Assembly: GCA_016125275.1 (NCBI GenBank)
Contig: WGMB01000009.1
Location: 62,001 to 126,000 of the forward strand
Origin: Acidobacteriota bacterium
GTDB taxonomy: Bacteria; Acidobacteriota; Terriglobia; Bryobacterales; UBA6623
Reading direction: 5' to 3'
DNA: 64,000 nt
Shown here: positions 29,529 to 31,747 of the stretch, piece after piece
How the letters are laid out: every line of letters begins with the position of its first letter
How positions within the stretch are numbered: position 1 is the first letter of the stretch
Notes under the pieces: model-generated
Database searches by the model: none
The model's input: only the letters and a program-made list of their open reading frames with translations
Told to the model about the DNA's origin: nothing
Translations under genes and position numbers: made by a program

Positions 29529-29558
29529 TTGCGGCAAAATTCACTGTCGGGATAGAAT
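29529..29558 (+). promoter_or_regulatory. Sigma-70-type promoter of the cysteine-peptide/radical SAM operon
   Basis: TTGCGG (29529-29534) and TAGAAT (29553-29558) are 18 bases apart. Transcription should start near 29565, just before the GGAGGG ribosome site at 29568-29573. The box overlaps an upstream in-frame ATG (29557), which supports 29584 as the true first start codon. Confidence 0.65.
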
Positions 29559-29583
29559 GTTCCAGCCGGAGGGTCGGAATAGG

Positions 29584-30081
29584 ATGGCAAAATCGACCAG
29601 CAAATCCCAGCCGAAAGAGCAGCCTTACTACCCGGTGGAGATTCGCGCCGAGGACATGCAGATCTCACGCGCCGGCGAGCTGCTCATCGTCGGACGGCCG
29701 GCGGAGATCGTACGGCGGCTCGTGCTGAACTACCCCGAGTTCTACCCAAAATCGATCGTCCCTTACTTGCAGTCCCGCGAGGCGAGCTTCCAGCCCGAGG
29801 AGCTGTGGATCGACCCCAAGCGCCGCGTCCACATCACCAACAAGAAGCTCGTGGCGCGCGCGCGGCACCACATGGCCGCCGCCAAGAAGGCGACGGCGGC
29901 GAAGACTGCGGAGCCTGCAAAGACGGCGAAAGCGACCAAGGCGACAACGACAACCGCCAAAGCCGCGAAAGCAGCCAAGAGCGCCAAGAAGACCGCGACG
30001 GCCAAGACCTCCCCGGCGACCAAAGTGACGAAAGCCGCGAAAGCCAAGAAGGCCGCCAAGACGACGAAGGCCAAGAAGTAG
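29584..30081 (+). CDS. Small basic protein with histone-H1-like Lys/Ala tail, first gene of the RiPP-like operon
   Basis: 165 residues, no family recognised. Residues about 15-95 look like a compact alpha/beta domain (YYPVEIRAEDMQISRAGELL, then VGRPAEIVRRLVLNYPEFYP and SFQPEELWIDPKRRVHI). From about residue 98 the protein is nearly pure Lys/Ala/Thr (AAKKATAAKTAEPAKTAK-type), like the tail of histone H1 or bacterial H1-like proteins. ATG 29584 has GGAGGG 10 bases upstream. Eight bases separate it from the cysteine-repeat peptide gene. It could be a peptide-binding partner (an RRE substitute, since the radical SAM enzyme has no RRE of its own), a chaperone, or a nucleic-acid-binding protein. 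All three are inference. Confidence 0.8.
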   Translation: MAKSTSKSQPKEQPYYPVEIRAEDMQISRAGELLIVGRPAEIVRRLVLNYPEFYPKSIVPYLQSREASFQPEELWIDPKRRVHITNKKLVARARHHMAAAKKATAAKTAEPAKTAKATKATTTTAKAAKAAKSAKKTATAKTSPATKVTKAAKAKKAAKTTKAKK

Positions 30082-30089
30082 AGCAACCG

Positions 30090-30707
30090 ATGGCGAAGAA
30101 GAAGAGCGCACCGAAGAAGTCCCTGAAGCCGAGCGTCGGCGAAAGGATCTCCGGACCCGCCACGATCAAGGGCGTCAAGGCCGGCTCCATCTATTTCGAC
30201 GACCACGGCCGCATCGTCGTCGACCCGGCGGTCCAGGAAGGCATCGGCGGGATCAAGCTGCCGCCGTGGCTTGGCGGGGGCGGCGGAGGAGGCGGCGGCA
30301 CGACGCTGGACGGCTCCTGCCCGGTGGTGGCCTGTGCTCCGGAAACCGCCTGCGCCGACGCGGCCTGCGTTCCCGAAGGCGCCTGCGCGGACGCGGCTTG
30401 CGCCCCGGAGAGCGTCTGCACGGACGCAGCCTGTGCGCCCGAGAGCGTCTGCACGGACGCCGGTTGCGCTCCCGAGACCGTCTGTACCGACGCAGCCTGC
30501 ACGCCGGAGAGCGTCTGTACGGATGCCGCCTGCGCGCCCGAAAGCGTCTGCACCGACGCTCACTGCGAAGGCTCGGACTCCCTCTGCGCCGACGTGTTCT
30601 GCGGCGAGAACCAGGCCTGCCGCAACAAGGACTGCGAGATCAACCTGGAGTGCGGCGGCGGCGGCGGTCAGACCAATCCGCCGATCATCTCGGGGCCGGG
30701 CCTGTGA
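30090..30707 (+). CDS. Cys-rich repeat peptide, candidate radical-SAM RiPP precursor
   Basis: 205 residues. Lys-rich N-terminus (MAKKKSAPKKSLKP), a leader-like domain (about 18-61), a nine-glycine linker (62-70), then residues 77-188 with 21 cysteines, and a glycine run plus QTNPPIISGPGL tail. From Cys82 to Cys159 seven 11-residue units follow the pattern C-x-P-E-x-x-C-[TA]-D-A-x, so cysteines alternate at spacings of 6 and 5, and the spacing persists to Cys188 apart from one 7. An acid stands three residues before 17 of the 21 cysteines, and asparagine before three more. The gene shares a GTGA overlap with the radical SAM gene, the usual sign of substrate and enzyme. No signal peptide. The alternative is a disulfide-laddered or metal-binding solenoid. 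Confidence 0.85.
   Translation: MAKKKSAPKKSLKPSVGERISGPATIKGVKAGSIYFDDHGRIVVDPAVQEGIGGIKLPPWLGGGGGGGGGTTLDGSCPVVACAPETACADAACVPEGACADAACAPESVCTDAACAPESVCTDAGCAPETVCTDAACTPESVCTDAACAPESVCTDAHCEGSDSLCADVFCGENQACRNKDCEINLECGGGGGQTNPPIISGPGL
30333..30563 (+). repeat. Seven tandem 33-base coding repeats (11-residue Cys unit)
   Basis: In-frame 33-base units encode residues 82-158 of the Cys-rich peptide. Units at residues 82, 93, 104, 115, 126, 137 and 148 keep C-x-P-E-[GST]-[AV]-C-[AT]-D-A-[AGH]. Synonymous positions differ between units, so the array is old enough to have diverged while the protein pattern was held. After it come three degenerate units that keep only cysteine spacing. Confidence 0.9.
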
Positions 30708-31747
30708 GCGCCGCGGCCGGCGTCCAAGCGCCTCAACTGACCGTTTTGCAGCAGAAAGTGGTGCGGGCGCTCGACAACCGCATCCTCAAGCTGACCCTGA
30801 TGCCCACCGAAAAGTGCAACTTTCGGTGCACCTACTGCTACGAGGACTTCGCCCTGGGGCGGATGCCTCGCAAGGTGGTCGACGGGCTCAAGAACCTGAT
30901 GTCCGCCCGCGCGCCGGAGCTGCGGGTGCTGGATCTGCGCTGGTTCGGCGGCGAGCCGATGCTGGGTTATCCGGTTGTCGAGGAGATCTGCCGCCACGCC
31001 CTCGACCTCCGCGCGCGCCACCCCCGCATGCAGGTCGTCTCGTCGATGACCACCAACGCCTACCTGCTCACGCGGGCGAAGTTCCTGCAACTGCTCGACC
31101 TGGGCGTGCGTTTCTACCAGATCTCGCTCGACGGCTACGGCGAGGACCACGACCAGACCCGGCAGCGCGCGGACGGCTCGGGCTCCTTCGACCGCATCTG
31201 GTCGAACCTGCTCGAGATGCGCTCGGTCGAGGGCGAGTTCGGCATCATGTTGCGGGTTCACTTCACGCCGCGGAACCTGCCGCAGATCCGCAAGCTCGTC
31301 GAGGCCATCAATCAGGAGTTCGGCCACGACTCGCGCTTCAAGGTCTTCTTCAAGGCCATCACCCGGCTGGGCGGCCCGAACAACGAGCTCATCGAGCGAA
31401 CCAGCGAAGCCTGGCAGAACGCCGCCAAGGCCGAGCTCACCAAGCTGGTCCGCCGGCGCGACGAAGTCATCGACCCCAACGGCGACGGCGCCTATATCTG
31501 CTACGCCGCCGAGCCCAACTCCTTCGTGATTCGCTCCAACGGCCAGATCGCTCGCTGCACGGTGGCTTTCGACGATCCGCGCAACCAGGTCGGGCGGCTC
31601 AAACCCGACGGGACGCTCGAATTGGACCTGGACCGCTCGCGGCTGTGGTTCGCAGGCCTGGAGAGCTTGGACAAGAAGACGCTGCACTGTCCCTTGCCCA
31701 CGCTGGCGAAGCTGCCCCCGCCGCTGGTGAGCCTCTCGGCCCCTTAG
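30704..31747 (+). CDS. Radical SAM peptide maturase with truncated SPASM (twitch-like) domain
   Basis: 347 residues. Radical SAM enzyme: the S-adenosylmethionine iron-sulfur cluster ligands are Cys38, Cys42 and Cys45 in CNFRCTYC, with the SAM-binding FGGEP at 81-85 and a conserved SMTTNAYLL strand. The C-terminus has Cys266, Cys285 in the G-x4-C pattern (GQIARC) and Cys329, fitting one auxiliary cluster. This is shorter than a full SPASM set of seven cysteines. The N-terminus lacks an RRE domain. The start is GTG 30704, whose last bases form the stop of the Cys-rich peptide gene. It probably installs carbon-sulfur or carbon-carbon links in that peptide. No protease or exporter gene follows. 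Confidence 0.9.
   Translation: MSAAAGVQAPQLTVLQQKVVRALDNRILKLTLMPTEKCNFRCTYCYEDFALGRMPRKVVDGLKNLMSARAPELRVLDLRWFGGEPMLGYPVVEEICRHALDLRARHPRMQVVSSMTTNAYLLTRAKFLQLLDLGVRFYQISLDGYGEDHDQTRQRADGSGSFDRIWSNLLEMRSVEGEFGIMLRVHFTPRNLPQIRKLVEAINQEFGHDSRFKVFFKAITRLGGPNNELIERTSEAWQNAAKAELTKLVRRRDEVIDPNGDGAYICYAAEPNSFVIRSNGQIARCTVAFDDPRNQVGRLKPDGTLELDLDRSRLWFAGLESLDKKTLHCPLPTLAKLPPPLVSLSAP

Follow-up and report, generated by a model that had tools for sequence, protein, structure and literature searches.

The locus described here raises the question of whether a small radical SAM enzyme and the cysteine-rich protein encoded next to it form a precursor-maturase pair and, if so, what kind of peptide such a pair would make. 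The locus lies in the window, a stretch of 64,000 nucleotides from the genome of an Acidobacteriota bacterium. Its three genes share one strand and are closely packed, as their coordinates confirm: gene A (positions 29584-30081, + strand, 165 residues) ends 8 nt ahead of precursor gene B (30090-30707, + strand, 205 residues), which has the same orientation and is followed by the gene for the radical SAM maturase C (30704-31747, + strand, 347 residues). The GTG start of C does fall inside the stop of B, and this GTGA overlap suggests translational coupling of the two. A T2SS-F family protein, a cupin and an EAL-GGDEF protein on the other strand are the neighbours of the cassette, and its limits were therefore drawn at A and C. 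A first-pass annotation of this DNA had placed one promoter at the locus, but a scan for the sigma-70 consensus, which covers that type only, found none. Known RNA elements were not found near the locus, nor was an Rgg-like gene among the flanking genes inspected. An RRE, a protease and an exporter had also been reported as lacking. The first absence holds genome-wide, as there is no PqqD Pfam match; that of a protease and an exporter holds for the flanking genes, the sole C39 leader peptidase found in the genome being on a different contig. Secretion genes are present near the enzyme in the Nostoc and Acetobacter relatives.

Membership of gene A in the unit is uncertain. The protein has an N-terminal part of unknown fold followed by a Lys/Ala-rich tail, and its low-confidence model (pLDDT 58) contains hairpin-helix units. 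Searches that covered 257 genomes of the order as well as plasmids detected no relative of gene A; the three-gene unit is thus not conserved. Gene A resembles a leader by eye and was considered as a second substrate or leader-bearing partner; this was rejected, as leader profiles score it no higher than shuffled sequences or chance ORFs. The composition of its tail, rich in Lys, Ala and Thr, is like that of histone H1.

The layout of B is that of a leader, a linker and a core. A basic start is followed by GSIYFDDHGRIVVDP, a linker of nine glycines that leads from leader to core (30273-30299, + strand), a core of 11-residue Cys repeats (30309-30653, + strand) and a glycine-rich end. Exactly 21 cysteines were counted, at residues 77-188 (112 residues), in agreement with the first-pass annotation. 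The spacing of six and five that it called strictly alternating holds as a run of 5, 6, 5, 6 intervals, but is broken by one interval of seven from Cys159 to Cys166. The tandem repeat is also visible in the DNA, with a period of 33 and 6.4 copies. Among the five inner repeat units, the differences are mostly synonymous (pN/pS = 0.10), so that the protein repeat appears to be kept by selection. From this pattern, B can be taken as a genuine gene rather than an array newly made by slippage. None of the NCBIfam families matches it.

The radical SAM identity of C was borne out by the motif C38xxxC42xxC45 and a Pfam Radical_SAM match (E = 8e-15), and the G-x4-C auxiliary site was located at Cys285. 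An AlphaFold model built with 19 relatives (pLDDT 85, pTM 0.85) has as its nearest solved structure CteB, a ranthipeptide synthase (TM 0.67; profile search 9e-28). The earlier statement that no described family could be recognised was upheld, since C falls under every NCBIfam cut-off. The scores were 123 bits for TIGR04463 (rSAM_vs_C_rich; cut-off 525), 105 bits for PapB NF047865 (cut-off 340; E = 3.6e-30, over residues 29-205 only), 83 bits for NF038107, a Cys-every-fifth system (cut-off 600), and 57 bits for SCIFF TIGR03974 (cut-off 425), for which B, with 21 Cys in 112 residues, also departs from the required six in 45. The relatives of C match the same profiles, and the plasmid records label genes of the clade "radical SAM protein" and "hypothetical protein". 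A literature search found work on NxxC, PapB and SCIFF systems and no paper on the clade to which C belongs; this is weak evidence, as most subscription papers were outside its reach.

A scan of species genomes yielded 22 relatives of C, which are 27-48% identical to it. Further relatives were found in three of 256 other genomes of the order, in four of 395 other genomes of the phylum and in 17 of 212 Nostocaceae genomes, as well as on plasmids of Streptomyces, Sinorhizobium, Acetobacter and others; the clade of C is widely spread, with members in Cyanobacteriota, Pseudomonadota and the phylum of the window, among others. The alignment, in which the CX3CX2C cysteines and GGEP are invariant or nearly so, splits these enzymes into two groups (tree support 99/98). 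Enzymes of the long clade carry about 90 additional residues at the N-terminus, and their SPASM-like set of cysteines is fuller. The short clade, 15 rows including C, is without the N-terminal recognition domain, and the only cysteines retained in its short auxiliary domain are Cys266, Cys285 and Cys329. By analogy, this domain is twitch-like, and its three cysteines would leave an open cluster site. Members of the enzyme family were also seen in a Sulfolobus metagenome-assembled genome, in two copies (L012/L052 and L053), the first of which has no recognisable Cys peptide beside it.

What these enzymes act on is suggested by their neighbours. The candidate precursors in the relatives were chosen by eye as small Cys-containing ORFs near the enzyme. 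The short peptides adjoining the clade enzymes share with B the leader φ-x-φ-[DN]-x-x-G-x-φ-x-φ. In B, it takes the form SIYFDDHGRIVVDP (residues 33-46; 30186-30227, + strand); other forms are NLQLDDHGRIQVEE (L036), SVSVDDHGRIVIKD (L037), DLTVDADGRVRIAN (L007), DVRVDSMGNIRITN (L008), LVNIDETGKVVINS (Nostoc) and IEINENGELVINEP (other Nostocaceae) and, on plasmids, KITVDEQGRVIIDD (Streptomyces) and SISLDESGKVVISN (Sinorhizobium). When a leader profile was made from the peptides of other genomes with the window left out, B ranked first among the window ORFs, at a modest E of 0.004-0.007. A contig from a viral collection (L114), which was in no profile, carries the leader ITVDDNGRVVI and the core DTNCSC immediately before its enzyme. 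The enzyme gene is preceded, in the same orientation, by a peptide with the leader motif in four plasmid records and, partly by construction, in 19 short-clade loci; in about 12 short-clade loci (e.g., L009, L010, L054, L055 and L059), a recognisable peptide is missing within the stretch examined. The cores in the relatives are short, mostly with two to four Cys and one or two sites of the [ND]xxC type, as in FGTCNNTACMAP (Labrenzia, L008) and NYVCPENGYCPQK (L069). In the window's order, one long-clade enzyme (L029:2911-3681, - strand) is accompanied by three tandem paralogous precursors of about seven Cys each, an intermediate core size, and by a downstream gene with a HEIGH motif that is M50-like by eye.

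B and C show both features of the short clade, as C lies within it and the upstream peptide has a φ-x-φ-[DN]xxG leader and an [ND]xxC core. Homologues of the enzyme were not found beside unrelated substrates; instead, the substrates share the leader motif and a putative cross-link motif. The pairing of a radical SAM enzyme with a RiPP substrate thus stood up, whereas the repeat is no hallmark of the enzyme type, which is not dedicated to repeat peptides. B looks like an expanded member of a group of short leader peptides, as judged from the leader and core motifs, and its unusual size is apparent from the 21 Cys of its core against the two to four found mostly in relatives. A pattern of three successive C-x-[DN]-x2-C units has five overlapping occurrences in the window genome and none in 276 other genomes of the phylum, and searches with the B protein matched nothing in the order or on plasmids. 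The giant core therefore seems to be an expansion peculiar to this genome, built on a plan that is widespread. Most likely, the array grew from an ordinary short core by tandem duplication of the 11-residue unit, and B would thus illustrate how a RiPP core can grow.

The nature of the putative cross-link was approached by tallying the residues at all positions between -7 and +7 relative to each Cys. In 25 short-clade peptides, Asn or Asp stands at -3 for 34 of 57 Cys, compared with at most 14 of 57 at any other offset, and 23 of the 25 have at least one such Cys. After removal of near-duplicate peptides, 28 were observed at -3, where shuffling gave a mean of 7.8 and a maximum of 17 in 5000. 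The long-clade peptides are less clean, with 27 of 58 Cys. Clostridial long-clade enzymes (L016:1841-2274 and L013:7589-7729) are followed by tiny peptides with repeated NVEC, NSIC and NFRC, which is near the streptococcal NxxC pattern. In B, Asp, Glu or Asn is found at -3 of 20 of the 21 Cys (shuffle mean 4.7, maximum 12 of 5000), although these are not 20 independent observations, because the repeats are duplicates. The last five Cys, outside the regular repeat, still have Asn or Asp at this position (DSLC, DVFC, NQAC, NKDC and NLEC), even though the sequence around them has diverged. A C-x-[ND]-x2-C unit had been considered as the shared element and was given up in favour of the -3 rule, to which many more of the peptides conform. 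The informative pattern of B, as read from its sequence, is hence Asp, Glu or Asn at -3 in an NxxC-like geometry, not the 6/5 spacing. The -3 residues of B are Asp (10), Glu (7) and Asn (3), while in relatives Asn alone accounts for 30 of 57 Cys and Glu is never present. The seven ExxC sites are therefore the weak half of the prediction, and 13 to 20 rings may fairly be expected; the Cys of the ExxC sites could be free thiols.

Given the leader similarity and the -3 rule, it is very likely that B and C are a RiPP precursor and its maturase, and the suggestion that the pair makes a multiply cross-linked peptide is probable. We moderately favour, by analogy with characterised enzymes, a ranthipeptide-type chain whose rings are directed to -3. 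The ring direction might also be the opposite, with each Cys joined to a downstream acid (C-x-D or C-x-x-E) as in freyrasin. Each Cys in the window repeats does have an acid at +2 or +3, PapB accepts CXnD with n = 0-6 (PMC9413430) and its profile matches C at 3.6e-30. However, Asn and Asp in the 25 relatives are not enriched downstream (at most 10 of 53), in contrast to the strong enrichment at -3 (34 of 57), which renders this direction unlikely. Sulfur-to-Cα bonds, as in a sactipeptide, are quite unlikely. Radical SAM/SPASM enzymes with Cys-rich substrates make these too, and the best profile for C, TIGR04463, is a Cys-rich-peptide maturase whose chemistry is unstated; yet the restriction of -3 to Asn and Asp (or Glu) fits a Cβ or Cγ acceptor beside a carbonyl, and the structure nearest to C is CteB, not SkfB.

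A different reading, and an improbable one, is that B is a Cys protein that chiefly buffers metal or redox state, with few residues altered by C and most of the Cys left as free thiols. The 21 Cys could bind metal, an exporter and a protease were not found nearby, and ExxC is without parallel in the relatives; however, Asp, Asn or Glu at -3 is no known rule of metal sites and is common to relatives with two Cys. That a Cys-rich structural protein and an unrelated radical SAM gene are neighbours by chance is very improbable: although the repeat array is found in the window genome only, B and C overlap at GTGA, and the leader motif is common to peptides adjoining the same enzyme family in other phyla.

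How the preferred -3 rings might be formed can be outlined from known chemistry. NxxcB joins Cys23 of NxxcA to the Cβ of Asn20, giving an S-Cβ thioether at NxxC (PMC8326336; PMC13361665), and PapB joins Cys to Asp Cβ or Glu Cγ (PMC9413430). A mechanism of hydrogen abstraction at -3 is proposed because the geometry of B and its relatives is that of NxxcA and because PapB makes both the Asp Cβ and the Glu Cγ bond. C would recognise the leader motif of B, IYFDDHGRIVV, which is common to the clade substrates, and then work along the core. A 5'-deoxyadenosyl radical would take a hydrogen from the -3 side chain, at Asp or Asn Cβ or Glu Cγ, and the Cys sulfur would be joined at that carbon, as by NxxcB at Asn20-Cys23. 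Repetition over 13 sites (Asp and Asn only) to 20 (with Glu) would produce a row of small thioether rings; each ring would cost 2 Da, and all of them together about 26 to 40 Da. Leader binding, ring chemistry and ring number are thus predicted from sequence, and a stable structural or metal-binding role of the mature peptide is a guess.

The fullest form of this proposal is a tentative one: one small twitch-type enzyme may install about 20 i-3 rings, alternating between Asp Cβ and Glu Cγ, along a repeat of about 110 residues. The resulting thioether-ring peptide would be exceptionally large and would belong to a RiPP family, defined by the leader motif and [ND]xxC, that is not yet described. 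If about 20 such rings are made, the product would be a genetically tunable "beads on a string" material; with rings along the whole array, one enzyme would yield a long, genetically tunable thioether polymer and offer a natural test of many-site handling and of Asp/Glu alternation. An uncurated radical SAM clade of several phyla is now tied to a defined leader motif and a predicted cross-link site, so that short peptides that are easy to express, such as the Labrenzia and Nostocaceae cores, can serve to test the chemistry before giant B is tried.

Long Cys arrays beside radical SAM genes were also seen on viral contigs. L081:2968-4854 (also L075, L076, L078, L082 and L098) encodes a 133-aa Asn/Cys-rich protein with 21 Cys (sequence GNCNNGNCPNNCNCGN...; N-terminus SPIYISQIDGEIG), and in L081 and L098, a 488-aa radical SAM/SPASM gene (phrog_1802) follows it after about 20 nt. 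In L079:291-2671, the Cys-rich protein forms a fusion with a Hint-like domain (PF05203, E = 1e-4, under the cut-off), and it overlaps the radical SAM gene. A virus-borne long Cys array by a radical SAM maturase is apparently an independent case. Viral contigs as bearers of window-type repeats were rejected: 32 match the bare Cys pattern, but what they encode is other Cys-rich proteins, or they lack a long ORF.

Several known systems invite comparison. The TIGR04463 maturases and the NF038107 system are among the best profiles for C, and their partners are Cys-rich peptides. In the SCIFF/thermocellin system (CteA/CteB), CteB comes closest to the C model among solved structures, but it is longer (about 450 residues), and six Cys in 45 residues mark its type of precursor. 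Freyrasin (PapA/PapB) is like the proposal for B and C in that one enzyme makes several thioether rings to Asp Cβ or Glu Cγ, although the PapB match of C is below cut-off; freyrasin differs from B in having six rings, an acceptor downstream of Cys (C-x3-D) and a shorter peptide. In the NxxC RaS-RiPPs (NxxcA/NxxcB of Streptococcus orisratti and S. porci), NxxcA has one ring and NxxcB is described as a SPASM enzyme; the number of sites in B, by contrast, reaches 20, with Asp and Glu in the majority, and C is short and twitch-like. The two are likened by geometry: NxxcB joins Cys to the Cβ of an Asn three residues upstream, and this spacing dominates in the peptides of the clade of C.
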